Source of the DNA: a virus
Reading direction: 5' to 3' (one strand)
IMG/VR virus record: IMGVR_UViG_3300022868_000009
Span: 280,635 to 344,634 of that record
Length of the DNA stretch: 64,000 nt
Positions 11,450-62,046 of this stretch are shown here, piece by piece (position 1 is the first letter of the stretch; the number at the start of each line of letters is the position of its first letter). Made by a program: the position numbers and the translations under genes. The notes beneath the pieces are model-generated. The model searched no databases, was not told where the DNA came from, and saw only the letters and a program-made list of their open reading frames with translations.

Positions 11450-11509
11450 ATGAAAATTGGTTTAAAAAGAAAGCACATCATCGAAGCACTTAAAATGAAT
11501 TTATTATAA
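11450..11509 (+). pseudogene. Relic of a tagged gene (19 residues ending LKMNLL)
   Basis: MKIGLKRKHIIEALKMNLL, an N-terminal strand fused straight to the family's C-terminal tail, so nearly all of the body is deleted. It is preceded by a six-codon ORF overlapping it by ATGA. It lies 8 kb from the other tagged genes. Confidence 0.6.
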
Positions 11510-11524
11510 TAATATATAAAATAT

Positions 11525-12130
11525 ATGAGAAACCTTAAAACATATGAAGATTATTTATATGAATATTCTGAAATTAAAAAAGAAGAAACACTACACATAT
11601 ACACAGATGGTAGTTATTCTGACCAAGTTTCAAATTATAAAATAAGTTATAGTGCAGTTTTAATAACAGAAAACGAAAACGAATATTATCTTTCAGGACA
11701 TATGGTTAGAAAATATGTTGATCAATTATTTGGTTCTCAAACACCATTAAATAGTTTAACTGCTGAATTAGTGGCTTTAAATCAACTACTTTATATTATG
11801 AATAGCTATAAAATATCTAATAAAAATCTTCTAATTTATACAGATTGTGAATCTGTTTACGAACACTTCAATGAATCTTTGCCTGTAATAAAGAAAAAAA
11901 ATATGTCTAAATTAGTCAATAATATAAAACATAATATTAACAATTTAAAAAATAAAAAAAATATCGTTGATATTAGATGGATTCCAGGACATAAACAAAT
12001 ATACGGTAATATGATAGCAAACTATCTAGCCAAAAAAGGTGAAGATATCAACACTTTTAAAATATATTTTAATATGGCAGATAGACATTTTAAAAATATG
12101 AAAGACTACGATTGGTTCAAAAAACTTTAA
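11525..12130 (+). CDS. RNase HI-like nuclease with an N-terminal KTYE-type tag
   Basis: 201 residues. Catalytic residues of the RNase H fold are present: D in YTDGSY, E in TAELVALN, D in YTDCESV, and the H-containing GHK..GN..AN segment near the end. It cleaves RNA in RNA-DNA hybrids, for example removing primers. The first 16 residues (MRNLKTYEDYLYEYSE) precede the fold and resemble the MKYLKTYNE module of the tagged small proteins. Overlaps the convergent glycosyltransferase gene by 4 bases. Confidence 0.85.
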   Translation: MRNLKTYEDYLYEYSEIKKEETLHIYTDGSYSDQVSNYKISYSAVLITENENEYYLSGHMVRKYVDQLFGSQTPLNSLTAELVALNQLLYIMNSYKISNKNLLIYTDCESVYEHFNESLPVIKKKNMSKLVNNIKHNINNLKNKKNIVDIRWIPGHKQIYGNMIANYLAKKGEDINTFKIYFNMADRHFKNMKDYDWFKKL

Positions 12131-12765
12131 AAATCACCACCTTTTATTGGAGGAGCACCCCAGTGACAAACTAAATATTGTGGCATATTTTCAAGTTTCT
12201 TAAATTTCAAACCTTTACTAGCTAAAGTTAAAACAAATAACCAATCATGACCATAACCAGTTTTCCATTCTATACCAGAAATATTCTTATGACAAATAGA
12301 ACTTGTTCCGATCTGACCAAATCTCGGTTCAACCAACCTTTTATGTAATATTTTAAAATCTTTACTACCAACTAAATAATCATCATAATATACCCAGTCA
12401 TATTTATTAATATCAAATTGAGACATTATAGTTTCTAAATGTGTTTTACCCCAAGCATCATCACTATCAAGATAAGCGATAACTTCACCTTTAGCATGGT
12501 TTAATCCTTCTGTTCTAACATTTCCACTATAAGTTGGCTGTTTTGGTATTATTATACATTCAATATTTGGAATATCATCCCAATTTTCTTTATATATCTC
12601 ATAAGTTTTTGTACAACCATCTGAAACAATAATTAATTCAGTATTTTTATATGATTGTTTTATAAAAGTTTTAACAGCTCTTATAAATTTTTTATCTCTA
12701 TTTTTAGCAGCATTTGGATAATCACCCAAATAACTTGCCATTATAACTGAAACTAATTTATTCAT
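12127..12765 (-). CDS. Family 2 glycosyltransferase
   Basis: 212 residues of GT-A fold. It opens SVIMASYLGDY, has FIKQSYKNTELIIVSDG and the metal/nucleotide-sugar site AYLDSDDAW. Transfers a sugar from a nucleotide donor; target may be phage DNA, virion protein or host surface. Upstream of it in the same direction lie thyA and a second glycosyltransferase, which is compatible with base or surface modification. Confidence 0.85.
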   Translation of the reverse strand: MNKLVSVIMASYLGDYPNAAKNRDKKFIRAVKTFIKQSYKNTELIIVSDGCTKTYEIYKENWDDIPNIECIIIPKQPTYSGNVRTEGLNHAKGEVIAYLDSDDAWGKTHLETIMSQFDINKYDWVYYDDYLVGSKDFKILHKRLVEPRFGQIGTSSICHKNISGIEWKTGYGHDWLFVLTLASKGLKFKKLENMPQYLVCHWGAPPIKGGDF

Positions 12766-12780
12766 ATTATTTATTTTATT

Positions 12781-23183: not shown

Positions 23184-23213
23184 AGTTTAGAAGGTATTCC
23201 TTATCTTTGTATT
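23184..23213 (+). promoter_or_regulatory. Promoter, GTTTAGAAGGTATTCC variant
   Basis: AAGTTTAGAAGGTATTCC followed by TTATCTTTGTATT, one of four near-identical copies (also 25414, 26164, 30653). Confidence 0.8.
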
Positions 23214-23255
23214 GAATATAATTTAAAGAATAGAAAATGATAAAAGGAATAAGTA

Positions 23256-23573
23256 ATGACATATAAGGTATTGATTAAGGTTCGTAATGAATCTGAATGG
23301 ATATCATGTTGTGATATGTTGTATAGTCATGGTTATCGATGGCAAGACAATTGTATGGACTCAAAGAAGATACATGGATATAAGTTGATAAGTGAAGGTG
23401 ATATATATTTAGTTATATATAATCATACTGACCCTCATCATCATGATGATCGTTTATTTTATAATACTAATGTTAATGTTGATATTTATGGGCCGGATGT
23501 TATTATAATTAATTATGTTGAAGGTATGGATTTACATGAGATAATAGAAGTTAATAAATTGGGATTAATATGA
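23256..23573 (+). CDS. Tagged small protein, GYRW group (tail EVNKLGLI)
   Basis: 105 residues. Opening VLIKVRNESEWISCCDMLY then SHGYRW; the middle has an HHHDD run, and it closes EVNKLGLI. Paralogous to the next two genes. Preceded by an AAAAGGA ribosome site inside a nine-codon ORF that overlaps the start. Confidence 0.75.
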   Translation: MTYKVLIKVRNESEWISCCDMLYSHGYRWQDNCMDSKKIHGYKLISEGDIYLVIYNHTDPHHHDDRLFYNTNVNVDIYGPDVIIINYVEGMDLHEIIEVNKLGLI

Positions 23574-23905
23574 TAGTATTTAGTAAAGATATAAAGAAAA
23601 TAAATATTAAGGTTCGTAATGAATCTGAATGGGTATCATGTTGCAATATGTTGTATAGTCATGGTTATCATTGGAATGTTGAGTCTGATTTTATGGAGAT
23701 ATATTCTGAATGTTTAGAAACTGCTAAGGAATATATTAAGACTTATGCAATAAATGATGGTATATATTTAGTTGTTTATAATGATAATAGTGGACGGTTA
23801 TATTATAATTATAAATATAAGACTGATGGTATAATAAATCTTGATTGGTATGATGGTATGGATTTACATGAGATAAATGAAGCTAATAAATTGGGGTTAA
23901 TATGA
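23570..23905 (+). CDS. Tagged small protein, GYHW group (tail EANKLGLI)
   Basis: 111 residues; shares KVRNESEWVSCCNMLYSHGY and GMDLHE with the upstream paralogue. ATGA overlap on both sides. Confidence 0.75.
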   Translation: MIVFSKDIKKINIKVRNESEWVSCCNMLYSHGYHWNVESDFMEIYSECLETAKEYIKTYAINDGIYLVVYNDNSGRLYYNYKYKTDGIINLDWYDGMDLHEINEANKLGLI

Positions 23906-24207
23906 AAGAGAAGATATACATAATATTAAATAATATAGATGATTGGATTAATTGTTGTAATCAATTAGACAATGAGGGATATTTTTGGGCAAGAAGTAGT
24001 GACTCATATAAAGATAAATATCATAAATGTAAAACTTTCGGTAATCCTGAAAATTATATAGTAATAGGTCATAATGAGTATGATGATAATCGTTTATATT
24101 ATGGTAATATATATAATGATAAGAAGTTTGATGGTATTATTTTATATTGGGATGCTGATGTAGATTTAGAAAGTTATTTTGCAGGTTTAAAAATGGGATT
24201 ATTATAA
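23902..24207 (+). CDS. Tagged small protein (tail AGLKMGLL)
   Basis: 101 residues; third member of the tandem set (DDWINCCNQLDNEGYFW, then RLYYGN). Last gene before a 110-bp gap. Confidence 0.75.
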   Translation: MKEKIYIILNNIDDWINCCNQLDNEGYFWARSSDSYKDKYHKCKTFGNPENYIVIGHNEYDDNRLYYGNIYNDKKFDGIILYWDADVDLESYFAGLKMGLL

Positions 24208-24317
24208 TAATATTTTCATGTTTGACCAGGGAGAATTTAGGTTGGAGGAAAGGGGATATTTTTATTTGGTGAAGGTTTGTTGTGTATTTGTGTATAAATT
24301 AAAATGTAAAAAAGATT
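24208..24317 (+). promoter_or_regulatory. Gap with promoter and a repeated TTAGGTTGGAGGA element
   Basis: Contains GACCAGGGAGAA (also near 46381) and TTAGGTTGGAGGA (also near 52090), then a promoter-like GTGTATTTGTGTAT at about 24281-24294. The repeated elements may be part of an RNA. Confidence 0.45.
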
Positions 24318-24698
24318 ATGATAAAATGGATTAATATAAGGCTGGAAGGTTATGGTAAAGGTAAAGGTAAAGGTAAAGGTAAGAAGAAACTGAATAAGAT
24401 GGTTATGCGTAAATTGTTACATCAAATTGATTGTAAGGTTGGTTTTCGTATTAAGGATGGTGGATGGAAACCAGTTTTAAATAGTTTAAAAGAATATAAG
24501 CATTATAAATATATATGGATTGCTATATGTCCTTTTGGTAAAGATATGGCTGCGGATTATCATGAAAATAAAGAAGAATGGGAGAGTTATAAAGACGGTA
24601 TTGAGGCGGATGAAGCTGAGGTATGGTTGAGTTGGGAAGAGTTTATGGATTTAGATATTCAGATGATTGTTAATGGTTCTAAAATGAATTTATTATGA
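24318..24698 (+). CDS. Tagged small protein with GK repeats (tail GSKMNLL)
   Basis: 126 residues. KWINIRLEGYG is followed by GKGKGKGKGKKK, coded by GGTAAA repeats, an insertion compared with paralogues at 24695 and 51002. The tail has N for G, as at 11450 and 41187. Confidence 0.7.
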   Translation: MIKWINIRLEGYGKGKGKGKGKKKLNKMVMRKLLHQIDCKVGFRIKDGGWKPVLNSLKEYKHYKYIWIAICPFGKDMAADYHENKEEWESYKDGIEADEAEVWLSWEEFMDLDIQMIVNGSKMNLL

Positions 24699-25087
24699 AA
24701 GATATAAAGTGGATAAATATAATGTTAGACTGGGATAAGTTTAAGTGGGAACAATTCCATGATGTTGTTGATTATTATAAAGAGTTATTTCCTAAATTAG
24801 ATTGGACAACTGTTCAAACTGAGATACAGATACATGATAAAATTCGAAATGAATCTGTTTTTGATATTTTAGGTTTATCTATATGTTTGGAACATGATAG
24901 TAATGATTTTAATATTAATAATTGTGAAAATACTATAAATAATTGGCATCCTGTTATATTTAAGTATGGTATTGGTGATGATTTATATGACAAGCAAACT
25001 GGTATTGAAATAATTGTTAAATATAGTAAAGATTTCCGTGAAGAGATTGAGTTTTATTTAGAGGGTTCTAAAATGGGTTTATTATGA
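24695..25087 (+). CDS. Tagged small protein, KWINI group (tail EGSKMGLL)
   Basis: 130 residues; opens KDIKWINIMLDWDKFKWEQ, has a helix then DILGLSICLEHD, and ends FREEIEFYLEGSKMGLL. Related to 51002, 51382 and the broken 51756. ATGA overlaps at both ends. Confidence 0.75.
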   Translation: MKDIKWINIMLDWDKFKWEQFHDVVDYYKELFPKLDWTTVQTEIQIHDKIRNESVFDILGLSICLEHDSNDFNINNCENTINNWHPVIFKYGIGDDLYDKQTGIEIIVKYSKDFREEIEFYLEGSKMGLL

Positions 25088-25416
25088 AAAAAACAATAAT
25101 ATTTTTACATAACAATAAGGATTTGGGCAACTTGTTCATGTATTTACATGTTATTGGATGCAAATGGTCTAGTGGTAGACCTATTATAATAGATAGTGAA
25201 ATACAAAGATTTAATTTATCTTGTTCTAGATCTAAATCTGTTGCAATTATCGTTGATGATGGTAGTCTTACTTATGTATCAAATAAGAAAGATATTGTTT
25301 ATAGTTATATATCTGGTGATAAATTTAAATATTATGATCATTATGAGTATGTAGATTTTGATAAGGAGTTTGATATTGATGTAACTATTAATGGTAATAA
25401 GATGGGATTACTTTAA
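25084..25416 (+). CDS. Tagged small protein, GCKW group (tail NGNKMGLL)
   Basis: 110 residues; strand KKTIIFLHNN, helix, VIGCKW, a VAIIVDDGSLTYV hairpin and YDHYEYVDFDKEF before the tail. Paralogue of the next two genes. Confidence 0.75.
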   Translation: MKKTIIFLHNNKDLGNLFMYLHVIGCKWSSGRPIIIDSEIQRFNLSCSRSKSVAIIVDDGSLTYVSNKKDIVYSYISGDKFKYYDHYEYVDFDKEFDIDVTINGNKMGLL

Positions 25417-25446
25417 AGTTTAGAAGGTATTCCGTGTCTTTGTATT
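25414..25446 (+). promoter_or_regulatory. Promoter inside the array
   Basis: AAAGTTTAGAAGGTATTCC then GTGTCTTTGTATT; begins at the stop of the previous gene. Confidence 0.75.
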
Positions 25447-25468
25447 ATAATTAAAGGAGGAAACAAAA

Positions 25469-25804
25469 ATGAAAATGATAATATATGCACATAATGACGA
25501 AGATATTTATAAGTTATCAACTTATTTACATTATATTGGAATTAAATGGCAAACTGAAATTTTTATTATGAATGATGGTGAAATGACAATAGATTGTAAT
25601 AGAGCTGAATCTAAATCTATTGCATTTTGTGTTAAAAATAATCGTGTGTCATATATGAATGATGGTGGTTCTTTTGGTGGTGATGTTTATAATTTTTTCA
25701 AAAGGCAACCATATGAATGTTATGACCATTATGAGTATATTGAATTTGATAAGGAGTTTGGTGTTGATATGGTTTTAGAATCAATAAAGATGGGTTTATT
25801 ATGA
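25469..25804 (+). CDS. Tagged small protein, GIKW group (tail ESIKMGLL)
   Basis: 111 residues. Same plan as its neighbours: MKMIIYAHNDED, YLHYIGIKW, IAFCVKNNRVSYM, YDHYEYIEFDKEF. Strong AAAGGAGG ribosome site. ATGA joins it to the next gene. Confidence 0.75.
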   Translation: MKMIIYAHNDEDIYKLSTYLHYIGIKWQTEIFIMNDGEMTIDCNRAESKSIAFCVKNNRVSYMNDGGSFGGDVYNFFKRQPYECYDHYEYIEFDKEFGVDMVLESIKMGLL

Positions 25805-26166
25805 AAAAAACAATAATATATGTACATAGTGATGAGGATATGATTAATTTATTAAGTTATTTACATTTTGTTGGAGTTACATGGCATGGCTCTGCTATTA
25901 TAAAAGATGATGATAGTTCCGATAATTTTTTTAATGCCGATGCCAGATATATAGATATTAGTTGTAAAAAAACGGGAACTGTTGGATTTTGTATTGATCA
26001 AGATGATTATATTACATATATGGATGATGGTACTTTTAAAGGCGAGAATGTTTATGAATATTTCGGTAGAGATTTTATGGAGTATGATCATTATGAGTAT
26101 GATGAATATGTTGAAAAGTTTGATATTGAACCACTCATAAATGGAATAAAGATGGGTTTACTTTAA
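25801..26166 (+). CDS. Tagged small protein, GVTW group (tail NGIKMGLL)
   Basis: 121 residues, third of the tandem triplet, with an insertion after the first hairpin (SSDNFFNADARYIDIS). Confidence 0.75.
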   Translation: MKKTIIYVHSDEDMINLLSYLHFVGVTWHGSAIIKDDDSSDNFFNADARYIDISCKKTGTVGFCIDQDDYITYMDDGTFKGENVYEYFGRDFMEYDHYEYDEYVEKFDIEPLINGIKMGLL

Positions 26167-26196
26167 AGTTTAGAAGGTATTCCGTATCTTTGTATT
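26164..26196 (+). promoter_or_regulatory. Promoter
   Basis: AAAGTTTAGAAGGTATTCC then GTATCTTTGTATT, overlapping the preceding stop codon. Confidence 0.8.
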
Positions 26197-26218
26197 ATAA
26201 TTAAAAAGGAGAAGAAAA

Positions 26219-26473
26219 ATGAAAAAGAAACAAAATAAAAAAGAAGAGAGTAAATATCAATACAGAAGTGATACTGCTGTTAGGGTTGAAGAAACTGAAT
26301 ATAGTGTAAATGAGTATGACGAATGGGATCGCATAGTATTTTATTTATGGAAGAAGAGTGGTTATTGGTCTGTGAATGTTTTTGCTCCTGTAACTGATGG
26401 TAAAAGGGTTTCATTAGAACCTTTACAAGTAATTCATAAGTATTGGACATCTTATAATAAATTATCAATATGA
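26219..26473 (+). CDS. Hypothetical protein without tag
   Basis: 84 residues; basic N-terminus, then a beta-rich stretch (WDRIVFYLWKKSGYWSVNVFAP). First gene after a promoter, coupled by ATGA to the next. Confidence 0.6.
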   Translation: MKKKQNKKEESKYQYRSDTAVRVEETEYSVNEYDEWDRIVFYLWKKSGYWSVNVFAPVTDGKRVSLEPLQVIHKYWTSYNKLSI

Positions 26474-26736
26474 AAAGATTAAATATATTTGTAAGAAGTG
26501 GATTACAGCAAACGTTGTTTCTACATTATTTATATACTAATGGTTATAGTTATAAAGATAGAAAGGATCTTTATTGGAAATTTACTAATGGTTCAGGTGC
26601 TATTGTGGTTAATGTAATTGATAAAATAATATTAGGTGGTAACACAGGTTGGTTTGCAACACAATCACATATGAATGTAAAAGAATTTGTTGATAAGGCG
26701 TGGGAATTTGAAAGTATGAGGATTGGTGTATTATGA
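26470..26736 (+). CDS. Tagged small protein (tail ESMRIGVL)
   Basis: 88 residues: RLNIFVRSGLQQTLFLHYLY then NGYSY, GGNTGWF, and a diverged tail. R and I replace K and M/L. Confidence 0.7.
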   Translation: MKRLNIFVRSGLQQTLFLHYLYTNGYSYKDRKDLYWKFTNGSGAIVVNVIDKIILGGNTGWFATQSHMNVKEFVDKAWEFESMRIGVL

Positions 26737-26780
26737 TTAAGGAATATCATATATGTATTATAAATAAAAAGGAGAAAAAA

Positions 26781-26972
26781 ATGCTAACAATATTAACAAT
26801 ATTATTAATATGGAATCAATTTAGTGGTTGGTTTAGAAAGATGTTTTGTAAAATTGGTTTACACACATGGATTAAAGTCTATTCACATAATGAAAAAGGT
26901 TGGCATATAAAGGAAAAGAAATGTAGAATATGTAATAAGGAGGTAAAAAATGATAAAAATAATAGAAAATAA
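26781..26972 (+). CDS. Small membrane-proximal CxxC protein
   Basis: 63 residues from ATG 26781, which has a perfect AAAAAGGAG ribosome site; an in-frame ATG at 26733 overlaps the previous stop. Hydrophobic start (LTILTILLIWNQF), then CKIGLHTW and CRICNKEVK, a possible zinc site. Confidence 0.6.
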   Translation: MLTILTILLIWNQFSGWFRKMFCKIGLHTWIKVYSHNEKGWHIKEKKCRICNKEVKNDKNNRK

Positions 26973-27459
26973 AACACAAACTAAAAGAATTGAACCTTAT
27001 TATAGGTTAAAATTTAGTTACATGATTGGTGATGCTGATGGTGACACTACAGAGAAGATTGATATTCCTCTTAACAATCCATATGTCGAAAGAGTTGTTG
27101 ATGTTTTAAATAATTGTGATACACCTAAAGGTCATTGGGGTATGATATTAGACTCTGAACATTTCACTAAGTTATTGAATCAGGGTAAAATGACACAGAG
27201 TGATTATAATTTTTGTAAAGTGGTTGTATTTGGTGATGACATTGATGAACACATGGAAGAGTTTTTCAGCAAGGAAAGAATTGAGGCTGACAAATTAAAA
27301 TTATTGGAGATAACTGGCGATGAAAAATCATACGCTTATGAATTTGAAGAGGCTTGTATTACTTCGATTGGACATAGTTTCGCAGTTTTTGAAGGTATTG
27401 ATTTATATTATATTGATGAATATGGAGTAAAACATGAGACCAAAATAGTTGATGATTAA
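26950..27459 (+). CDS. Untagged protein of the YYxDEYGV family
   Basis: 169 residues. Shares MIGDADGDT and GIDLYYIDEYGVKHETKI with the genes at 22282 and 43171. It contains EADKLKLLE internally near 117, like an embedded tag, but ends KIVDD. Role unknown. Confidence 0.7.
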   Translation: MIKIIENKTQTKRIEPYYRLKFSYMIGDADGDTTEKIDIPLNNPYVERVVDVLNNCDTPKGHWGMILDSEHFTKLLNQGKMTQSDYNFCKVVVFGDDIDEHMEEFFSKERIEADKLKLLEITGDEKSYAYEFEEACITSIGHSFAVFEGIDLYYIDEYGVKHETKIVDD

Positions 27460-27478
27460 AACATTAAAATGGTAAGGA

Positions 27479-27509
27479 ATTTCAGAAGGAGTTCCTTATC
27501 TTTGTATTA
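27479..27509 (+). promoter_or_regulatory. Promoter
   Basis: TTTCAGAAGGAGTTCC then TTATCTTTGTATT upstream of 27534. Confidence 0.75.
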
Positions 27510-27533
27510 ATATTAATTTAAAGAAGAAATAAA

Positions 27534-27761
27534 ATGATAAAATATAAAATAACAGATGAAAAAATTGAAGTAGGCGACATTGTTGCTTATGGAATAACAT
27601 GGAGAGAGAAACGTGTAAGAAAGCACGGTTATGTACTTGGTGTTTGGGAAGAATATTGGGATGAGGATTCACAGAAGTTTAGAAATAAGGTTGAATGTGT
27701 TGATAAAGATAATCATATAATTCGTAGTGAAGAATGGTTAAAAAAGGTGGTATTGATATGA
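27534..27761 (+). CDS. Hypothetical SH3-like small protein
   Basis: 75 residues with IEVGDIVAYGITW...RKHGYVLGVWEEYW, a beta-barrel rhythm reminiscent of small binding domains. No tag. Confidence 0.55.
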   Translation: MIKYKITDEKIEVGDIVAYGITWREKRVRKHGYVLGVWEEYWDEDSQKFRNKVECVDKDNHIIRSEEWLKKVVLI

Positions 27762-28063
27762 TAAAACGATATTATAAAATAGGAATAGATATTCCTGATA
27801 ATAAATTTGTTAAGTTGATATCAGATCATTTATATTCTTTGGGTTATAAATGGTGTAGTGATTTTAGAGACGAATCTTTTTATGATAAAGTAACGAATGA
27901 ATGTATAAGAAGTAATGTGCGTGGTATTGGTGTTGAATGTAATGGTCGCATGAGTTACAATGTTGTTAAAAATCAAACTGAAAAGTGGTATTCTCTTGAA
28001 GAATATGTAATAAAATATGATTTAGTGATTGAATATGAAGGATTAAAAATGGGTTTATTATGA
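27758..28063 (+). CDS. Tagged small protein, GYKW group (tail EGLKMGLL)
   Basis: 101 residues; ISDHLYSLGYKWCSD, GIGVECNGRMSYNV, WYSLEEYV, tail. Closest relatives are at 49021, 49238 and 49534, 21 kb away in the second array. Start set by the ATGA overlap. Confidence 0.75.
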   Translation: MIKRYYKIGIDIPDNKFVKLISDHLYSLGYKWCSDFRDESFYDKVTNECIRSNVRGIGVECNGRMSYNVVKNQTEKWYSLEEYVIKYDLVIEYEGLKMGLL

Positions 28064-28167
28064 GAAAGAGAAAACGAATCAAGGAAAATATTGACTATTT
28101 GTTATTTGGAATGGATTGTGCATTGATAGTATTATTTGTATTATTCATAGTATTAATTATAATTTAG
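28060..28167 (+). CDS. Very small membrane protein
   Basis: 35 residues: basic MRKRKRIKEN then a membrane segment MDCALIVLFVLFIVLIII. Starts in the ATGA of the previous stop. Confidence 0.55.
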   Translation: MRKRKRIKENIDYLLFGMDCALIVLFVLFIVLIII

Positions 28168-28176
28168 GAGGAAAAA

Positions 28177-28527
28177 ATGAGAAAAATATATTTAGCAACA
28201 AATTATTTCACAGCGTTAACCCCGCTTGATGATGATAACAATTTATTAAAATTAGAAAGAGGTAAAGATCCTGTTATTATTTGTACCCTTGAGAAATATC
28301 TGGAAGATGTTGATAACACAATAATCACAGGTAACATATTAAGATTAGAAATAATTGCAAAAACAGATGATGGTTGGATAATTGAACAAGAATTTATAAC
28401 ACCGGGAATGTTAGAGAGTTTGAATTGTAGAAAGATAAGTCTTGACTCACAATTTATTGAAACTTTAAATCGAAGCCAGAAAGTGGCTTTAGAGTTAAAG
28501 AATATAAATGAAAAATTGTCAAGGTAA
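28177..28527 (+). CDS. Hypothetical protein
   Basis: 116 residues with AGGAGG ribosome site; strand-rich N-terminus and a helical C-terminus. No tag, no recognised family. Confidence 0.6.
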   Translation: MRKIYLATNYFTALTPLDDDNNLLKLERGKDPVIICTLEKYLEDVDNTIITGNILRLEIIAKTDDGWIIEQEFITPGMLESLNCRKISLDSQFIETLNRSQKVALELKNINEKLSR

Positions 28528-28533
28528 ATTTTT

Positions 28534-28565
28534 TTATTAAGTAGAATCACCGTATATTTGTATTA
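28534..28565 (+). promoter_or_regulatory. First of two tandem promoters before HU gene 1
   Basis: TTATTAAGTAGAATCACC then GTATATTTGTATT. Confidence 0.7.
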
Positions 28566-28610
28566 TACAATTGAGAAGATAGAAAAAGAAGAGAAATAAA
28601 CAGAATGATT

Positions 28611-28644
28611 TTTTAATTCAGAATAAAGTTCTTATCTTTGTATA
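28611..28644 (+). promoter_or_regulatory. Second tandem promoter before HU gene 1
   Basis: TTAATTCAGAATAAAGTTC then TTATCTTTGTATAG, about 50 bases upstream of the ATG. Confidence 0.75.
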
Positions 28645-28695
28645 GACAAAAACAAGTAAACATAATATTAATTAATTTAAAAAACGAAAAACAAA

Positions 28696-29010
28696 ATGGC
28701 AAACAAAAAAGATTTAACAAACGCAATTGCAATAGCTACAGGCAAAACAAAAAAAGATAGCAAAGAATTAGTAAACGTCATAATGGCATCTATTAAATCT
28801 GAATTAAGTAACGGTGAAGGTTCTATCGTAAAATTAGTAAACTTTGGAACATTTAAAGTAGTTAATCGAAAAGCAAGAAAAGGAAGAAATCCAAGGACTG
28901 GTGAATCAATTGATATCCCTGCAAAGAATGTAGTTAGATTCAAAGCTGGTAAAGGTCTTAAAGAAGCGGTTGATTATACTGCTGAAGAAAGAGAAGAATT
29001 AGGAATATAA
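28696..29010 (+). CDS. HU-family DNA-binding protein, copy 1
   Basis: 104 residues. Full HU/IHF layout: helical MANKKDLTNAIAIATGKTK, SELSNGEGSIVKLVNFGTFKV, the arm RKARKGRNPRTGESIDIP with the DNA-intercalating Pro region, and FKAGKGLKEAV. Bends and packages DNA. Two close paralogues at 36686 and 42643. Followed by a strong terminator, so it is a single-gene unit. Confidence 0.95.
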   Translation: MANKKDLTNAIAIATGKTKKDSKELVNVIMASIKSELSNGEGSIVKLVNFGTFKVVNRKARKGRNPRTGESIDIPAKNVVRFKAGKGLKEAVDYTAEEREELGI

Positions 29011-29029
29011 GAAATAAAACTCCTGAAAT

Positions 29030-29061
29030 ATCGAAGCCACCTGGAGAGGTGGCTTTTTTTA
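29030..29061 (+). terminator. Terminator of HU gene 1
   Basis: AAGCCACCT-GGAG-AGGTGGCTT followed by T6; its T-run runs into the next promoter. Confidence 0.9.
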
Positions 29062-29087
29062 TTTGAAAAAATTCCTTATATTTGTAT
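29059..29087 (+). promoter_or_regulatory. Promoter for a leaderless gene
   Basis: TTATTTGAAAAAATTCC then TTATATTTGTAT, with ATG directly after. Confidence 0.75.
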
Positions 29088-29408
29088 ATGAATAACGAAA
29101 AATATATAAGGTTTAAGGTAAAAACTCTATCAGATAGTAAGAGTATTCAAGAATTTTTATTTTCTTTAGGATATATGTGGTGTTCAGAAAATAGGAAAGA
29201 ATATTATTATATGAATTTTGAAACGTCTGATATTTTATTATGTCTTGAGAGTGACTTTAATCCTAATATAGATCATATTTTTCATGGTGATGTAGAGATA
29301 TTAAATTATGATAAAAGATGGATGGATAAGATAATAAAATCTTATGATATGAGTAATTATAAAGATTTTATTCAATATAAAAATGCAAAACAACTGGGAT
29401 TAATTTAA
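29088..29408 (+). CDS. Tagged small protein, GYMW group (tail NAKQLGLI)
   Basis: 106 residues from ATG 29088; the TTG six bases upstream lies inside the promoter and cannot be the start. KSIQEFLFSLGYMWCSEN matches the next gene. Confidence 0.75.
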   Translation: MNNEKYIRFKVKTLSDSKSIQEFLFSLGYMWCSENRKEYYYMNFETSDILLCLESDFNPNIDHIFHGDVEILNYDKRWMDKIIKSYDMSNYKDFIQYKNAKQLGLI

Positions 29409-29437
29409 TATTAAGAACAAACTCCGTATCTTTACAC
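29409..29437 (+). promoter_or_regulatory. Promoter for a leaderless gene
   Basis: TATTAAGAACAAACTCC then GTATCTTTACACT directly before ATG 29439. Confidence 0.7.
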
Positions 29438-29438
29438 T

Positions 29439-29744
29439 ATGAAAAAACATGAAAAATTTATATTATTTAAGGTTGATACTTCAAGGGAAAGTAAGGAAAT
29501 TCAAGAATTTTTGTTTTCTTTAGGTTATTCTTGGCGTGGAGATAATAATATGGAATATTTCTCTGTTGAAATTGGGGCTTATATTTTATTATGTGTTGAT
29601 AGTAATAATATTAAGAGCAAAAATTGTATTTTTTATGGAAATGATAAAATGCAATATGATCAAGAACTTATAAAATCTTATAACATGAATAATTATAAAG
29701 ATTCTTTATGTTTTATAGAATCATTTAAATTGGGATTATTTTAA
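29439..29744 (+). CDS. Tagged small protein, GYSW group (tail ESFKLGLF)
   Basis: 101 residues, tandem paralogue of 29088 (EIQEFLFSLGYSWRGDN, YILLCVDSNN). Stop is followed at once by another promoter. Confidence 0.75.
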   Translation: MKKHEKFILFKVDTSRESKEIQEFLFSLGYSWRGDNNMEYFSVEIGAYILLCVDSNNIKSKNCIFYGNDKMQYDQELIKSYNMNNYKDSLCFIESFKLGLF

Positions 29745-29773
29745 AATTGAGAACAAACTCCGTATCTTTACAT
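29743..29773 (+). promoter_or_regulatory. Promoter of small RNA copy A
   Basis: TAAAATTGAGAACAAACTCC then GTATCTTTACATA. Confidence 0.7.
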
Positions 29774-29777
29774 AGTT

Positions 29778-29845
29778 AAAGGGCGGAGAATTTTTATAGG
29801 TTCTGGGAGAGTAGACTCCAACTTGCGATATATTTTTTTTAACAC
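29778..29845 (+). ncRNA. GAGTAGACTCC small RNA, copy A
   Basis: AAAGGGCGGAGAA, then GGTTCTGGGAGAGTAGACTC, then CAACTTGCGATATA. GGAG can pair with CTCC. It begins about 5 bases after a promoter and no ORF follows before the next promoter. See copies at 34484, 40363, 42279 and 44735. Confidence 0.65.
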
Positions 29846-29851
29846 AATTTT

Positions 29852-29883
29852 TATTTCTTAGAAGTAATCCGTATCTTTGTTAT
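29852..29883 (+). promoter_or_regulatory. Promoter for a leaderless gene
   Basis: TTTCTTAGAAGTAATCC then GTATCTTTGTTAT; ATG follows immediately. Confidence 0.75.
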
Positions 29884-30315
29884 ATGAAAATGAAAGTATT
29901 ATATATTAAAGCTGAAAACATGAAAGATGGTGATTTTGACATTATGTTAAAATTTGTTAATAATAATAAAAATTTAGATTATTATTTAACAGGTATAAAT
30001 ATGGGGGGTATTATGAGAACATTTATATGTATAGCCGTAAATGATGATAATTATAATGAGGTTAAAGAAAAATTATTCTCTAAATATAATACACCATCAC
30101 ATATTACTGATTTTCAAAATTATGAAGATTATAAATATCCCTATTTATCAATTGAAATATCAATGGAAAATGAACATGCAGATCATTTAACTATTCATCC
30201 TTTGAATGATGATGATGTAGATGTTAAAAATTTTGAAATAATTTATAGTAATATTGATGACATATTTGATGATATTGATATGCATATAACTACAAAAAAA
30301 CTTGGTTTATCTTAA
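29884..30315 (+). CDS. Tagged protein (tail TKKLGLS)
   Basis: 143 residues. Strand-helix start, acidic middle (HPLNDDDVDVKNFE), diverged tail ending Ser. Leaderless by promoter position. Confidence 0.65.
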   Translation: MKMKVLYIKAENMKDGDFDIMLKFVNNNKNLDYYLTGINMGGIMRTFICIAVNDDNYNEVKEKLFSKYNTPSHITDFQNYEDYKYPYLSIEISMENEHADHLTIHPLNDDDVDVKNFEIIYSNIDDIFDDIDMHITTKKLGLS

Positions 30316-30330
30316 CTAAAAAAAATAATT

Positions 30331-30651
30331 ATGAGAAAATTTAATTGTATTAAAATAGAAAATGAAGAACATTTAAATGAATGTTATAAAAAGATAATTG
30401 ATCTTAAAACACATTATCCATATAACACTTTTGTTGATAGATTTATTATGATAAAGGGTTATTGTATTGGTTTTGAAATAGAAGAAATAGAAGAAGGAAG
30501 ATTAATTTTAACATTTTTAACTGATAATGATCTTCAACGATTTGATGAATCAAATGAATTAGCTTTTAATTGTAATTATTTTAATGATATTGATTCTTTT
30601 GTTGAATATCATAAGATTTATTTTGATTGTAGATCATTAGGGGTTTTATAA
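30331..30651 (+). CDS. Tagged small protein (tail CRSLGVL)
   Basis: 106 residues; begins KFNCIKIENEEHLNECYKKI. A diverged tail with S and V substitutions. Confidence 0.65.
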   Translation: MRKFNCIKIENEEHLNECYKKIIDLKTHYPYNTFVDRFIMIKGYCIGFEIEEIEEGRLILTFLTDNDLQRFDESNELAFNCNYFNDIDSFVEYHKIYFDCRSLGVL

Positions 30652-30652
30652 G

Positions 30653-30685
30653 AAAGTTTAGAAGGTATTCCGTATCTTTGTATAA
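30653..30685 (+). promoter_or_regulatory. Promoter of the SprT-like operon
   Basis: AAAGTTTAGAAGGTATTCC then GTATCTTTGTATA. Confidence 0.8.
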
Positions 30686-30704
30686 ATATTAAAATAATAT
30701 AATT

Positions 30705-31166
30705 ATGGAATTAGATAAAGCAAGAATAAAAATGAGAGAATTGTTATCAAAACATGGTCTTGATAATTGGAGTTTTGATTTTGATAGAGCAGTTAGACGT
30801 TTAGGTCAATGTGTTTGGAAAAAGAATAGTATCATGACTCGAAAAATTACTATGTCTAGAATTATGACTGAAAGTAGAACTGATAAAGAAGTTATTAATA
30901 CAATGTTACATGAAATAGCACACGCAATAGATTTTGAAACAAGGGGTAGAAGTGCTCATGATGATGTTTGGAGATCAATTGCATTGAGTATTGGTTGTGA
31001 TGGTAATAGATCTAGTAATGTTGATGTTGAGGTTTCAGAAAAGAATTATAAGTGGTTGGCTATATGTCCAGAGCATGGTGTTTTGGGTGGATGGCAAAGA
31101 AAACCAAAAGATAATAAAATGTGTAAAAAATGTAAAAGTAAAATCATAATAAAGGAAAATAAATAA
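30705..31166 (+). CDS. SprT-like zinc metallopeptidase
   Basis: 153 residues. The HExxH site is MLHEIAHAIDF near 65, followed by HDDVWRSIALSIG with the third ligand region, and a C-terminal zinc ribbon (ICPEHGVLGGW, CKKCKSK). Same layout as SprT/Spartan proteins, which in eukaryotes degrade DNA-bound proteins. In a phage it may clear protein from DNA; that is inference. Followed after one base by the 31168 gene. Confidence 0.85.
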   Translation: MELDKARIKMRELLSKHGLDNWSFDFDRAVRRLGQCVWKKNSIMTRKITMSRIMTESRTDKEVINTMLHEIAHAIDFETRGRSAHDDVWRSIALSIGCDGNRSSNVDVEVSEKNYKWLAICPEHGVLGGWQRKPKDNKMCKKCKSKIIIKENK

Positions 31167-31167
31167 C

Positions 31168-31995
31168 ATGAAAATAAAAGAAATAATAAGAAAAATATAT
31201 GATAAAACCGGACATGGATATACTGCTACGGCTATTAGTGTTTTAAAAAAATCTGGTTTGATGGGTGATAAAACACATCAAAAGATTAAGAACATTGTTG
31301 AGAATGAAATTCAAAGATATGAAAAAGAATATTTTGAAAAATATAAGTCTTATATTAGTGAGTATAGATATGAATCACCAACTATGATTTTATCAATAAT
31401 GTATATTGATGGTTTTAAAGGAAAATATACTGATTCTTATAAGAAGATTCAGAAAGAGATTCAAAGAATTGACACATCAGAATTAAAGTCATATAAATCT
31501 TTAATAAAGAAAGCTAAATCTACTGATCATTTGCTAAGTAAGATATCCCATTATAAAAGAGCATTATCATTTCGAGGGGATAAAAAAATTGAAGAGAAAT
31601 TGAAAGATTTAGAGGAGGATTTTCACTCAGATCAGATTATAGAGGATGAGAAGCAATTTTCAGAGAATACTATTCAATTAAAAGATTCCTCTATAATCAA
31701 AATTTATCTTGATCCGAATAACAGAAATACTTTGATGATGGAACAAGAACAAGAAGGTAAAAAAGGTTTTAGGTTAGTTAATCATTTTGCAGCTATACCA
31801 CCATTGAAAGAAACTACTGACATATTTTGGATTGGTGAAAGAACTTCAAAAGCAACTGGTTATAAACATAATTCAGAGGCTTTAATAATAATGAGAGATG
31901 AAAATGATACAATAAGAATATATTATAAAGGAAGTTTATTAATAGAAAATTATTGTGAAGAAGAATTAAAAAAAATTATAAATAAAATTAAATAA
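31168..31995 (+). CDS. Hypothetical helical protein
   Basis: 275 residues, helical N-terminal two thirds and a beta-rich end (DIFWIGERTSKATGYKHNSEALIIM). Co-transcribed with the SprT-like gene. A fragment of its 5' part recurs at 47630. No family recognised. Confidence 0.65.
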   Translation: MKIKEIIRKIYDKTGHGYTATAISVLKKSGLMGDKTHQKIKNIVENEIQRYEKEYFEKYKSYISEYRYESPTMILSIMYIDGFKGKYTDSYKKIQKEIQRIDTSELKSYKSLIKKAKSTDHLLSKISHYKRALSFRGDKKIEEKLKDLEEDFHSDQIIEDEKQFSENTIQLKDSSIIKIYLDPNNRNTLMMEQEQEGKKGFRLVNHFAAIPPLKETTDIFWIGERTSKATGYKHNSEALIIMRDENDTIRIYYKGSLLIENYCEEELKKIINKIK

Positions 31996-32003
31996 AACAA
32001 ATT

Positions 32004-32530: not shown

Positions 32531-32536
32531 TTTTTA

Positions 32537-41513: not shown

Positions 41514-41526
41514 AAAAGGAGACAAA

Positions 41527-41805: not shown

Positions 41806-41806
41806 T

Positions 41807-41890: not shown

Positions 41891-41906
41891 CAAAATAATT
41901 AAAAAT

Positions 41907-42221
41907 ATGAAAAATATAGAAGAATATTATTTTATAACAATTGAAACTAAAAAATGTAACAATGGAAATATTAATGAAATATTAGACTATTGTATAAAAA
42001 TAGGACTTCAACTTCAGTATCCACGGCAAAGCTACGAAACTGATGAATATTTAGTAATGTGTTTCAAAAGTTATCATAAAGCAATTGCTAATTGTGATGC
42101 TGGTATAGTTTACGGAACTAATGATTTATTAGAAGAACTAGATTATATGTTATCACCAGAAGAATTTTTATCTGGTGAATATGACTACTTATTCGATGCA
42201 GGAAAATTAAACTTAATTTAA
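41907..42221 (+). CDS. Tagged small protein (tail DAGKLNLI)
   Basis: 104 residues from ATG 41907; the frame runs back into the tRNA, which cannot be coding. EEYYFITIETKKCNNGNINE opening, acidic end, tail with N for G. Confidence 0.7.
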   Translation: MKNIEEYYFITIETKKCNNGNINEILDYCIKIGLQLQYPRQSYETDEYLVMCFKSYHKAIANCDAGIVYGTNDLLEELDYMLSPEEFLSGEYDYLFDAGKLNLI

Positions 42222-42239
42222 AAATATAACATTTAAACT

Positions 42240-42274
42240 TTTTATTCCAGAATAATCTCCGTATATTTGTACTA
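42240..42274 (+). promoter_or_regulatory. Promoter of small RNA copy D
   Basis: TTTTATTCCAGAATAATCTCC then GTATATTTGTACT. Confidence 0.8.
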
Positions 42275-42278
42275 TAAT

Positions 42279-42415
42279 AAAGGCTGAGAGATTAAACTCC
42301 CCCAGAAGAGTAGACTCCAACTTGCGTTATATCCCCGCACACAAGAATAATATATACCAATAAACAGATTCGTGATTCGACTGCTTGCGTCAAAGCCTCG
42401 AATCACGATCATGTT
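42279..42415 (+). ncRNA. GAGTAGACTCC small RNA, copy D, with 3' hairpin
   Basis: AAAGGCTGAGAGATTAA, then CCCAGAAGAGTAGACTCC, then AACTTGCGTTATAT. Downstream (42367-42410) CGTGATTCGA and TCGAATCACG form a long stem, so this copy may be a longer RNA. Confidence 0.65.
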
Positions 42416-42462
42416 GATATATCTAAGTTACATGTTTAAATTCAATTTTATTACATTTAAGT

Positions 42463-42497
42463 TTTTTTACCTGAAAAAAATCCGTATATTTGTATAA
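42463..42497 (+). promoter_or_regulatory. First of two promoters before HU gene 3
   Basis: TTTTTACCTGAAAAAAATCC then GTATATTTGTATA. Confidence 0.75.
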
Positions 42498-42521
42498 CAA
42501 GATTGGAAATAATCTTACACT

Positions 42522-42542
42522 TTTCTTGAAAATTTCAAGAAA
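42522..42542. promoter_or_regulatory. Palindrome, possible operator or hairpin
   Basis: TTTCTTGAAA-A-TTTCAAGAAA, 10-bp arms, placed between the two promoters of HU gene 3. Confidence 0.5.
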
Positions 42543-42561
42543 TAAAACTTTAAAAATATTT

Positions 42562-42596
42562 TTAATGTAAGAAAAATTTCACTATATTTGTATATA
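42562..42596 (+). promoter_or_regulatory. Second promoter before HU gene 3
   Basis: TTAATGTAAGAAAAATTTC then ACTATATTTGTATA. Confidence 0.75.
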
Positions 42597-60451: not shown

Positions 60452-60546
60452 ATTTTTATACCAAGAAATATTCCTTATATTTAAGTATTGGAATTTCGAA
60501 AAAATTGAAGAATTTTTATTTTTTGAACAAATTCCGTATATTATAA
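60452..60546 (+). promoter_or_regulatory. Tandem promoters of the ATPase gene
   Basis: ACCAAGAAATATTCC then TTATATTTAAGTA (60458-60486), and TTTTTTGAACAAATTCC then GTATATTATAAAT (60519-60547). Confidence 0.6.
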
Positions 60547-60572
60547 ATGATGAAATACATAAACTACTAAAT

Positions 60573-61463
60573 ATGGAAGAAAAAACAAAAATATTATTAA
60601 ACGGCAAAGAAAATAAGAGCGAACTTATTAACTTACTTACAAAAGTTGATGTTTCTTGCTCTACTCGTGAACTAAATTCTGAGTTGATAGTTAAAATCAA
60701 ACATTTTAACAAATGTATCGAAGAAAATATCGAATTCAGAAATAAATTCAATGTTAATGAAAGATTTGAGTTCTTAGAAGATCTTACCAACATGATTATT
60801 GATGGTAAAGGTAACTCATTGATAGTTATAGGTGAAGGTGGACTTGGTAAAACATTTACTGTATTAAGCACTTTATCAAAAAGAACAAAAACTGGATTTC
60901 TAAACCTTTTCAAGAAAAAAGAAGATGTTCACATAGTTAAAGGTTTCTCAACAGCTAGAGGTCTATATGATACATTATATGATAATAGAGATAAATTAAT
61001 TTTATTTGACGACTGTGATTCAATCTTAGAAGATAAAACAGCTATTAATATTTTAAAATCAGCTTTAGATTCTTATGATACTAGAATCGTTACATGGTCT
61101 AAATTTTTGAAAAATAAAAACAATTATCCACAATCATTCGAATTTACAGGTAGAATAATCTTTATCTCAAATAAAAAGAAAACTCAAATACCACAACCAA
61201 TCTTAACAAGAGGTTATGTAGTTGATTTAGAAATGAGCAATGGTGAGAAAATCGACAGAATGGCTCACATCATGCCAACACTTATCGAAGATAAAGGTAA
61301 AGGTAGATGGAGTTTAAATGATGGTTTTACGGCTTTAGAATTCATTAGAATAAATATAGATGATGTTAAAGAACTAAGTATTAGAACATTAGTAGATGTT
61401 TTAAGAATAATGAAATCAAGAAAAAATTGGGAAAAATTAGCTTTATATACAATAACAGAATAA
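60573..61463 (+). CDS. AAA-type P-loop ATPase
   Basis: 296 residues. Walker A GEGGLGKTF near 91, Walker B KLILFDDCDSIL near 143, sensor-like IIFISNKKKTQIP and the arginine-finger candidate ILTRGYVV near 213, then a helical lid. Substrate unknown; such ATPases in phages remodel or load DNA/protein complexes. Stop overlaps the next start (TAATG). Confidence 0.8.
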   Translation: MEEKTKILLNGKENKSELINLLTKVDVSCSTRELNSELIVKIKHFNKCIEENIEFRNKFNVNERFEFLEDLTNMIIDGKGNSLIVIGEGGLGKTFTVLSTLSKRTKTGFLNLFKKKEDVHIVKGFSTARGLYDTLYDNRDKLILFDDCDSILEDKTAINILKSALDSYDTRIVTWSKFLKNKNNYPQSFEFTGRIIFISNKKKTQIPQPILTRGYVVDLEMSNGEKIDRMAHIMPTLIEDKGKGRWSLNDGFTALEFIRINIDDVKELSIRTLVDVLRIMKSRKNWEKLALYTITE

Positions 61464-61753
61464 TGACAACATATATAACAGATATACCATCAGAATATAT
61501 ATTATATCTTGATAAAATAATCAGTGAATATTATAATATGAAATCTATAATTAGACCTAATAAAAGAATCATAAAATATGATTATTATTTTATAAGTATC
61601 AATAAATATAATGATAATTGTCTGTGTTATTCAGGTATGTGTTATTTACATGAACTCATAGGACCAACCAGTGAAACTATTAATTATGTTGATTGGTTAG
61701 AAAAACATAATTTAACATACAAATTAGAATCAACCAAATTAGGATTATTATGA
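61463..61753 (+). CDS. Tagged small protein, YITDIP group (tail ESTKLGLL)
   Basis: 96 residues from ATG 61463, which overlaps the ATPase stop; the in-frame extension upstream is not needed. TTYITDIPSEYILYLDKIIS, then NYVDWLEKHNLTYKLEST. Confidence 0.77.
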   Translation: MTTYITDIPSEYILYLDKIISEYYNMKSIIRPNKRIIKYDYYFISINKYNDNCLCYSGMCYLHELIGPTSETINYVDWLEKHNLTYKLESTKLGLL

Positions 61754-62046
61754 CATTATATATAACAGACATACCTCAAAAAGAAATATTATATCTTGAT
61801 AAAATAATCAGTGAATATTATAATATGGAAACTATAACTCGTAGTATTAATAGAATTAATTTCACATTATATGATTATATTTATATAAGTGTTGGTAAAA
61901 ATTGTACTGAGGGATTATATTATTCAGATATGAATTATTTAAAACATATTAAAAAACAGAACCATAAAACTATCAATTATATTGATTGGTTGAAAAAGAA
62001 TAATTTATTCTATAAATTAGAATCAGCCAAATTAGGATTATTATGA
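61750..62046 (+). CDS. Tagged small protein, YITDIP group (tail ESAKLGLL)
   Basis: 98 residues, tandem duplicate of 61463 (TLYITDIPQKEILYLDKIIS, NYIDWLKKNNLFYKLESA). Middles differ more than the ends. Confidence 0.77.
   Translation: MTLYITDIPQKEILYLDKIISEYYNMETITRSINRINFTLYDYIYISVGKNCTEGLYYSDMNYLKHIKKQNHKTINYIDWLKKNNLFYKLESAKLGLL

Follow-up and report, generated by a model that had tools for sequence, protein, structure and literature searches.

The protein products of many small genes in a large T4-like phage end in the same short peptide, hereafter called the tag, although the protein bodies that precede it are largely dissimilar. Many of these genes lie in a stretch of 64,000 nucleotides (hereafter the window) that corresponds to positions 280,635-344,634 of the 344,634-bp IMG/VR virus record IMGVR_UViG_3300022868_000009 (G000, about 25% G+C). 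Across the phage, 111 of 645 called genes, about one in six, carry the tag. Several related phages carry other C-terminal peptides in the same fashion. The reading favoured here, tentatively, is that the tag is a docking motif that would bring together fast-evolving effector proteins, whether injected or produced early in infection, on a single shared partner that differs between lineages.

A second IMG/VR record (G001) overlaps G000 over 259,159 bp at 100% identity, and the two records are therefore fragments of one phage. Joined, they form a union of 433,697 bp with the 645 called genes given above. A T4-like character was indicated by UvsX, by a capsid protein of the Gp23 type and by a protease resembling Peptidase_S77. 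The protease scored 23.5 bits against a cut-off of 27, but its gene lies at most 4 kb from the capsid gene here and in the four huge-phage records searched. Gene names such as sheath, polymerase, Dam-like and HU-like are calls made by eye unless backed by a search. Relatives were drawn from IMG/VR, where 80 loci were kept from 401 capsid-protein relatives and 17 records were fetched whole or in part; LR756504 (W02) and T4 were compared whole, together with 260 of the 735 kb of LR756501 (W01) and 220 kb of phiKZ. Related huge phages have been published (PMC9723777), and predicted Bacteroidetes phages with late-expressed head genes are described in PMC9723584.

The tag was scored at seven positions over the last eight residues, and a protein was called tagged at a score of at least 6. 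The consensus at the C-terminus is [DE][LI]xxΦΦE[ASG]xK[ML]GL[LI], the motif extending back to about residue -14. Among the 111 tags the outer positions are looser (-14 D/E in 68, -13 L/I in 59, -9 I/L/Y/F in 80, -8 E in 60) than the inner ones (-7 A/S/G in 108, -5 K in 93, -4 M/L in 107) and the end (-3 G in 98 or N in 10, -2 L in 99, -1 L in 70, I in 16, Y in 10). Scores of the 482 genes of G000 form a two-humped histogram, with 42 genes at 7, 18 at 6, 4 at 5, 12 at 4 and 46 at 3. In the window, 44 of the 121 called genes score at least 6 and three more score 5; 54 stop-terminated segments score at least 6, ten of them outside called genes, being short or without a start. The figure of about 60 tagged proteins in an earlier note on this DNA was thus about right (44 + 3 + 10). 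The expectation by chance is very low: only 24 of 120,007 internal 8-mers score at least 6, which corresponds to 0.13 among 645 genes, and when the last 30 residues were shuffled in 1000 runs, the count averaged 0.106 and never exceeded 2. Because 108 of the 111 tag DNAs (24 nt) are distinct, the peptide and not the DNA is conserved, as the earlier note had claimed, and a DNA repeat or gene conversion was rejected as the source of the tag in the union. This rejection has a limit in two relatives: in a tandem array of leucine-rich repeat (LRR) genes at locus L310, 11 of 16 share the same last four codons, and the 23 KYNL tags of G012 are written in only six twelve-base spellings, so that local duplication may add tag copies in both. 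The reach of the motif to about -14, the position of 16 of the 60 tagged genes of G000 outside the window, an N-terminal motif on a subset of tagged proteins and a partial paralogy, the last two described below, go beyond the earlier note.

The bodies that carry the tag diverge strongly, in agreement with the same note. After ten residues had been trimmed from both termini, BLAST sorted the 111 tagged proteins into 80 clusters of at most ten members. The 23 tagged genes of G012 form 23 clusters; the frequency of the tag after removal of close paralogy is still far above chance, and paralogy alone was rejected as an explanation of most tags. Iterated profiles, built with the tail removed, placed 24 of the 111 in one diverged family, hereafter GYxW. 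Seven further members of this family scored as untagged, of which three have decayed or variant tags, one is a 60-residue relic and three lack a tag. An LRR profile collected 11 tagged and four untagged proteins, one of the untagged ending in ANKLGL. A Pfam and PHROGs scan of 110 tagged proteins (one that crosses a locus border was omitted) detected LRR in 10 and weak ankyrin repeats in up to three, the remaining Pfam matches being weak and confined to one or two members each (best 7.8e-5). PHROGs matches were mostly to families of unknown function, the best model covering 10 of the 110. No one Pfam or PHROG domain spans the tagged proteins, and the tag is not the end of a single known domain. 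An AlphaFold2 model of a GYxW member (49238-49537; pLDDT 85.2, 12 sequences) had no match in the PDB at E<=0.001 among 150 matches up to E 10; its best viral match was an uncharacterised Leuconostoc phage protein (E 2.4e-3), the phage matches being weak. As modelled, GYxW is a new small fold. The model of an LRR member (56218-56697) reached pLDDT 93.4 with 21 sequences, its first six residues falling below 50. In both models the last helix stops at the tag Lys and is followed by a four-residue coil tail.

Several relatives of the phage were found to end sets of their genes in peptides of their own. Residue triples over-represented in the last eight positions were sought without prior bias in 19 sets, with 40 shuffles per genome. 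The union yielded a K.GL. triple in 77 genes and 50 body clusters. The same procedure returned YNL in 23 genes of G012, KFN in six genes and six clusters of G009, IEW in 18 genes and 15 clusters of G016 (a NIEW-type ending), K..I..L. in 39 genes and 31 clusters of LR756504 (RKxxIxxL[LI]-type) and Y.E..W in seven genes and six clusters of the LR756501 portion (YGEExW-type). Outside the 19 sets, KYN ends six of 32 genes in G005, and no signal was seen in G013 or G002. Marginal signals came from G010 (four genes, 12.8 where shuffles reached 12.0) and from G023 (five genes, 14.9 where they reached 12.7); protein G010_15867 and a few large LR756504 proteins on the tag lists look like chance matches. 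The signal was below the respective shuffle maxima in G007 and in the parts of G022 and G027, and no triple reached four genes in G011, G020, G021, the part of G026, G004, T4 (256 genes) or the phiKZ portion (244 genes), the last two having no C-terminal tag. A signal in G025 (IMGVR 3300045921_000484) was rejected as paralogy, its eight I..Y.F.. genes (median 292 aa) forming one cluster.

Similar bodies were observed with different tags. In another lineage (L306-L311), LRR proteins are 47-58% identical to tagged LRR bodies of the studied phage, and in a 10-kb stretch of L310, K[FY][NS]I, mostly KFNI, takes the place of KMGLY or KMGLL at the end of 16 of the 18 called genes; 11 of these 16 have a BLAST match to the tagged LRR bodies and five do not. 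A 21-row LRR alignment has the Lys in every row; the residues after it are MGLY, LGLY or MGLM in one group and FNI, FSI or YNI in the other. Between KYN-type genomes, K[YF]N[LIV] is retained in five homologous pairs whose bodies are 28-55% identical. Masked BLAST detected no homologue of the tagged bodies at 1e-4 in 14 other genomes or fragments, and the LRR body had no match in the phage collection; profiles found few homologues in other genomes, and an LRR search of IMG/VR gave more. KMGLL-form LRR proteins were also present in another record (L302, L303), which may be one more piece of this phage or of a close one. A tree of 22 capsid-protein sequences unites the KYN genomes in a single clade (support 1.0) and groups G000 with G002, G004, G016 and LR756501 (0.97); LR756504 lies in the other main clade. 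Since lineages change the tag across unrelated genes, a partner of the tag would probably co-evolve with it and is likely phage-encoded. These comparisons bear on another explanation, that the tag is a structural remnant with no partner at all: a C-terminal helix cap, in which Gly or Asn follows the helix and precedes a hydrophobic residue, inherited from a small number of ancestral folds through duplication and divergence. The 24 and 11 tags concentrated in two families, the end of the last helix at Lys in both models and the exchange of G and N, which suits a helix C-cap, are consistent with it. A remnant is nonetheless improbable, given that the tag is common to LRR, ankyrin-like and GYxW bodies and stands on 23 separate clusters in G012, and that a cap would not turn into KYNL, KFNI or NIEW genome-wide while LRR bodies stay alike.

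Many proteins of the phage also share a start, hereafter the N-motif. Starts resembling MK[YH][LI]KxF/Y occur in 57 of 631 proteins (0.28 expected), and [FY]xxF[IL]xE occurs within the first 18 residues of 21 of the 631 (0.44 expected; 2 of 248 in T4), 18 of these 21 genes being late by the promoter walk described below. The N-motif resembles the T4-type start MK..[FY]xxF[IL]xE, T4 ipII and ipIII beginning with MKTYQEFIAEA. The corresponding N-terminal propeptide of T4 serves as its capsid targeting sequence (CTS), ten residues of which are enough for packaging; gp21 cleaves after L/I-x-E, and foreign proteins bearing the CTS are packaged and delivered (PMC9026906). By analogy, the N-motif proteins of this phage would be cleaved, packaged and injected. 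The N-termini of five major capsid proteins (MCPs) of this clade contain a conserved [IM][NH]EN segment near residue 43 that is like the [IL]NE of many N-motif proteins. Five enzyme-like proteins, all without the C-terminal tag, have an N-motif-like start by eye; they match DeoC, poly(A)-polymerase-head/CCA (PolyA_pol) and NUDIX, with DHH and NT5C below cut-off. A strict N-motif pattern, which misses variants, was found on 39 of the 111 tagged genes and on 52 genes without the tag. The two signals are associated in the union (odds ratio 5.0, p=2.6e-10) and, by a looser N-motif pattern, show no association in G016, LR756504 or LR756501.

Early-type and late-type promoter motifs were derived within this analysis. 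The late-type motif AATATATA is enriched (103 against 47 in the control); the T4 late promoter TATAAATA was considered and rejected, being not enriched (27 against 21 in the reverse control). The late-type motif precedes the capsid and protease genes, as well as large tail genes called by eye, by 15-40 nt; it is also located within 5-8 nt of many N-motif starts, with 19 occurrences at 5-8 nt for strict N-motif genes and 13 at 5-7 nt for others. A motif this near the ATG would give nearly leaderless transcripts, for example at G000 52377, 239550 and 245500 and at window 21030-21416. The early-type motif TAnnTTTGTA is presumably a promoter of the Bacteroidota type. Twenty of the 30 matches listed for G000 fall in window 23202..42583 on the plus strand, in intergenic sequence of the tRNA region, many with an upstream T-run. 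Two similar small genes, HU-like by eye (MANKKDLTNAIA.., window 28696-29010, and MANRKDLINGIA.., 42643-42951), each sit behind two early-type matches.

Each gene of the union was traced to the first promoter upstream, and the resulting classes are putatively named early and late. Genes with both the strict N-motif and the tag (n=39) were 29 late, 3 early and 7 without a promoter, and those with the N-motif only (n=52) were 39 late, 0 early and 13 without. Tagged genes without the strict N-motif (n=72) comprised 15 early, 13 late, several of which are N-motif variants by eye, and 44 without; genes with neither signal (n=482) comprised 190 late, 31 early, 260 without and 1 at a sequence end. The two tagged groups are unlike in their proportions of late and early genes (p=2.4e-4). 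A late motif stands directly upstream of 14/39, 22/52, 7/72 and 69/482 genes of the four groups, respectively. In the relatives the corresponding fractions for tagged and other genes are 0/51 and 114/837 (LR756504), 1/18 and 33/152 (G016), 4/23 and 19/182 (G012), and 2/10 and 12/77 (G009); the early motif barely exceeds its reverse-strand control in these four. Because the tag occurs on late-type N-motif proteins and on early-type proteins without the N-motif, and not on the N-motif enzymes, a role in the infected cell is favoured over a role in the head.

The tag could instead be a C-terminal capsid-targeting or cargo signal, recognised by the core or shell of the prohead, through which the protein is loaded, alone or together with an N-terminal CTS, a proposal judged less likely than docking and on balance doubtful. 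It would account for the co-occurrence of tag and N-motif in the union and in G012 (17/23 by the loose pattern, which gives false positives) and for the predominance of late-type genes among those with both signals. In the first 160 kb of LR756501, moreover, two of the six tagged genes are a prohead-protease-like paralogue (11314) and an MCP-like fragment (145891), ending DPYGEExW, and encapsulins load cargo into an HK97-fold shell by short C-terminal targeting peptides (PMC8346489). Packaging through the tag fits less well with the 52 strict N-motif genes and five enzyme-like proteins that lack it, with the 15 tag-only genes that trace to early-type promoters, with the LR756504 tagged genes that have no late motif, with the C-termini of the MCP and protease, which are unlike the tag, and with the sufficiency of ten N-terminal residues in T4 (PMC9026906). 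The overlap with the N-motif in the KYN lineages and the protease-like and capsid-like tagged genes of LR756501 nevertheless keep this proposal alive. Two related candidates were rejected: a prohead-protease site, as Glu occupies -8 in just 60 of the 111 tags and, by eye, the equivalent place in about two of the 23 KYNL tags, and the end of a capsid or protease/scaffold protein, whose C-termini differ from the tag.

A C-terminal degron, read by a host or phage Clp unfoldase for timed turnover, is very unlikely. The free C-terminus is hydrophobic, and the phage encodes an AAA+ ATPase of ClpB/ClpA type (AAA_2 above cut-off; NCBIfam ClpB 1051 bits, under the 1232 cut-off) and a ClpS (64 bits against a cut-off of 23), with ClpP in seven of the 20 records searched. 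ClpP matches are absent, however, from G000, G001 and LR756501, ClpS is a reader of N-terminal degrons, a motif of about 14 residues exceeds usual C-degrons, and turnover is hard to square with late proteins that would need packaging. With an ATPase and a ClpS but no ClpP match, a degron or adaptor role is conceivable. The ATPase gene (G000 151411-153567) lacks the N-terminal part of the ClpB model, and a tagged gene (154279) lies two genes further on; the ClpS adaptor gene is at G000 117622-117903. A more elaborate scheme, itself unlikely, is an adaptor system in which hypervariable target-binders (LRR, ankyrin, GYxW and others) would pass captured host proteins through a lineage-specific tether to one executor, for example the phage's own Clp-type unfoldase, comparable to the single ubiquitin ligase supplied by poxvirus repeat proteins. 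Some binders would be preloaded in the capsid and injected and some made early, and tether and receptor would co-evolve to give each phage lineage its own tag code.

Several known systems resemble the tag in part. The docking tails of the Clp adaptor SspB and ssrA-type C-degrons are short C-terminal peptides that offer one partner a single tether for diverse proteins; the likeness to the tag is one of analogy only. Poxvirus ankyrin/PRANC proteins (F-box-like) join expanded, diverged repeat bodies to a common C-terminal docking element and feed one ubiquitin ligase, the element there being a domain and not a peptide, in a poxvirus and not a phage. Sliding-clamp binders of T4-like phages have a hydrophobic motif at the extreme C-terminus. 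A clamp-binding motif was rejected, since the tag is not common to the polymerase and other clamp users of the studied phage, the likely users ending FDDWGF (polymerase part, by eye) and DDFWDF (flap-nuclease-like). Replication-type proteins at G000 144873, 127581 and 159074 end DDFWDF, FDDWGF and NDDFWN, respectively, a possible clamp-binding C-terminus. As a concept, a shared terminal peptide is already known from T4 (N-terminal) and encapsulins (C-terminal; PMC8346489). T4 internal proteins also bear a short terminal peptide on small, highly diverse bodies, and one of them, IPI, is a counter-defence protein injected with the DNA (PMC3012670; PMC9026906). The studied phage has the same type of N-terminal motif, but the tag lacks the tested defining features of a T4-type CTS: it occupies the last 8-14 residues instead of the N-terminus and has no (L/I)xE site, by the rule in PMC9026906. 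It also occurs on many more genes, including genes without a CTS, and varies with lineage, and T4 has no C-terminal tag. Encapsulin targeting peptides are likewise short C-terminal peptides on unrelated proteins (PMC8346489), whereas the tag is on scores of phage proteins, partly early-type, and a shell partner was not found here. A literature search that left out most subscription papers and bioRxiv preprints found no report of a genome-wide C-terminal phage tag, in agreement with the earlier note.

A number of observations weigh against docking. No partner was found, and no PDZ domain was detected in G000 or G001, both fragments, so that a ligand of a phage-encoded PDZ is not indicated; a host PDZ could be involved. 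In the KYN lineages the loose N-motif stands on most tagged proteins (17/23, 5/6, 8/10 and 5/6). The promoter motifs are our own derivations, 44 of the 72 tag-only genes have no promoter class, and the LR756504 tagged genes are not enriched in the early motif (4/51; others 124/837; reverse-strand control 95). Many relatives' fragments have no tag above shuffles, and some homologues of KYN-tagged proteins in other genomes lack the tag, among them the homologues of G009_7176 (in G004, G007 and G010), G009_7538 (in G012) and G012_79718 (in larger proteins). Part of the tag count is paralogy (24 of 111 GYxW, 11 LRR), and the tags of G016, LR756501 and LR756504 differ in chemistry from KMGLL and may have nothing to do with it.

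The tagged genes of the window, with promoters and relics, are collected in the table. The run at 22222-26166 is without the strict N-motif, and several of its members belong to the GYxW family.

Table. Tagged genes, promoter motifs and relic segments of the window (window coordinates).
Feature	Position	Strand	Details
Relic, 27-codon segment	11426-11509	+	ends EALKMNLL; near the start point given in the earlier note
Late-type promoter	upstream of pair 19245-19982	+	
Tagged gene	19245-19637	+	starts MKNFLNFINN.., ends EGNKLGLL
Tagged gene	19638-19982	+	N-motif MKHLKKYNEE, ends EGQKMGLF
Uncalled/relic segment	20251-20307	+	
Tagged gene	20304-20585	+	MKYLKTYNES, ends QAKELGLL
Tagged gene	20648-20830	-	ends QANQMGLL
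Tagged gene	21030-21416	-	MRYLKSYLE, ends TAKKMGLL; divergent from 21458-21760
Tagged gene	21458-21760	+	MKYLKTYNE, ends MGDKLGIL
Late motif	3-12 nt before each ATG of divergent pair 21030-21416 / 21458-21760		
Tagged gene	22222-22854	+	no promoter assigned
Tagged gene	22851-23183	+	no promoter assigned
Early-type promoter	23202	+	upstream of tagged run 23256-26166
Tagged gene	23256-23573	+	run
Tagged gene	23570-23905	+	run
Tagged gene	23902-24207	+	run
Tagged gene	24318-24698	+	run
Tagged gene	24722-25087	+	run
Tagged gene	25084-25416	+	run
Tagged gene	25469-25804	+	run
Tagged gene	25801-26166	+	run
Early-type promoter	27497	+	tagged region 27758-30315
Tagged gene	27758-28063	+	
Early-type promoter	29077	+	tagged region 27758-30315
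Tagged gene	29088-29408	+	
Tagged gene	29439-29744	+	
Score-5 gene	29884-30315	+	ends KKLGLS
Tagged gene	32207-32530	+	ends ESLKMGLL
Uncalled/relic segment	40486-40668	+	
Tagged gene	41187-41513	+	ends ESNKFNLI
Tagged gene	41907-42221	+	ends DAGKLNLI
Tagged gene	43171-43803	+	ends EAANLGLL
Uncalled/relic segment	48227-48352	+	
Tagged gene	48352-48633	+	
Tagged gene	48692-49024	+	
Uncalled/relic segment	49188-49241	+	
Tagged gene	49238-49537	+	AlphaFold2 model, pLDDT 85.2
Tagged gene	49534-49833	+	
Tagged gene	50358-50558	+	
Tagged gene	50680-50943	+	
Score-5 gene	51002-51382	+	MNMGVL
Score-5 gene	51382-51753	+	INMGLL
Uncalled/relic segment	51854-52081	+	
Uncalled/relic segment	52369-52422	+	
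Tagged gene	52484-52807	+	
Tagged gene	52802-53146	-	N-motif, late-type
Tagged gene	53201-53482	+	
Tagged gene	53504-53827	+	
Uncalled/relic segment	ending at 53877	+	
Tagged gene	53877-54176	+	
Tagged gene	54621-54923	+	
Tagged gene	54899-55240	+	
Tagged gene	55235-55588	-	N-motif MKYLNTYNE, late-type
Uncalled/relic segment	55733-55783	-	
Tagged LRR gene	56218-56697	-	N-motif, NANKMGLY, AlphaFold2 pLDDT 93.4; late-type promoter
Tagged gene	56719-57102	-	N-motif; late-type promoter
Tagged gene	57492-57962	-	late-type promoter
Tagged gene	58927-59352	-	N-motif, late-type
Tagged gene	59472-59795	+	ends NGLQLGLL
Uncalled/relic segment	59925-60110	+	
Tagged paralogue	61463-61753	+	ESTKLGLL
Tagged paralogue	61750-62046	+	ESAKLGLL

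Other features of the genome were noted in passing. The polymerase region (by eye, G000 127581-132418) is split by an intein-type element, with an intein C-terminal match, and by other insertions. At G000 134077-137952 the terminase large subunit (PHROG match, 135625-137952) is apparently interrupted by an open reading frame resembling a homing endonuclease. A 390-aa thymidylate synthase is encoded at window 12781-13953; its profile match is spread over 385 residues against a model length of 266, and the gene contains a 31-bp exact match to coliphage thymidylate synthase genes, suggesting a possible insertion.

The earlier note had left three roles for the tag open, namely sorting into the capsid or another compartment, docking on a common phage protein, and a degradation signal. 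Its description of a peptide conserved on divergent bodies stands, and none of the three roles is proven; promoter classes and the N-motif favour docking over pure capsid sorting. Under the docking reading, the tag would be a terminal helix ending K-[M/L/F/Y]-[G/N]-[L/I], with a hydrophobic residue and the free C-terminus closing it, that gathers a large, fast-evolving set of small phage proteins on one partner soon after a cell is infected. Binding to a variety of host targets would be the task of the bodies (LRR, ankyrin-like, GYxW and others), and the tag would be the connection that they share. Two routes would lead there: the subset with the N-motif would be made late, packaged and injected with the DNA, and the subset without it would be made after infection, partly from early-type promoters.

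Taken at this strength, the results point to a shared, still hypothetical docking or sorting system in infected cells. If this is correct, one peptide marks an arsenal of giant-phage proteins, most of them unannotated, and would recognise effectors where homology fails; a single peptide could then be used to fish out the common partner. The N-motif would show which tagged proteins and metabolic enzymes travel in the virion. Phage lineages with separate tags would also make the concerted re-tagging of an entire gene repertoire open to test.

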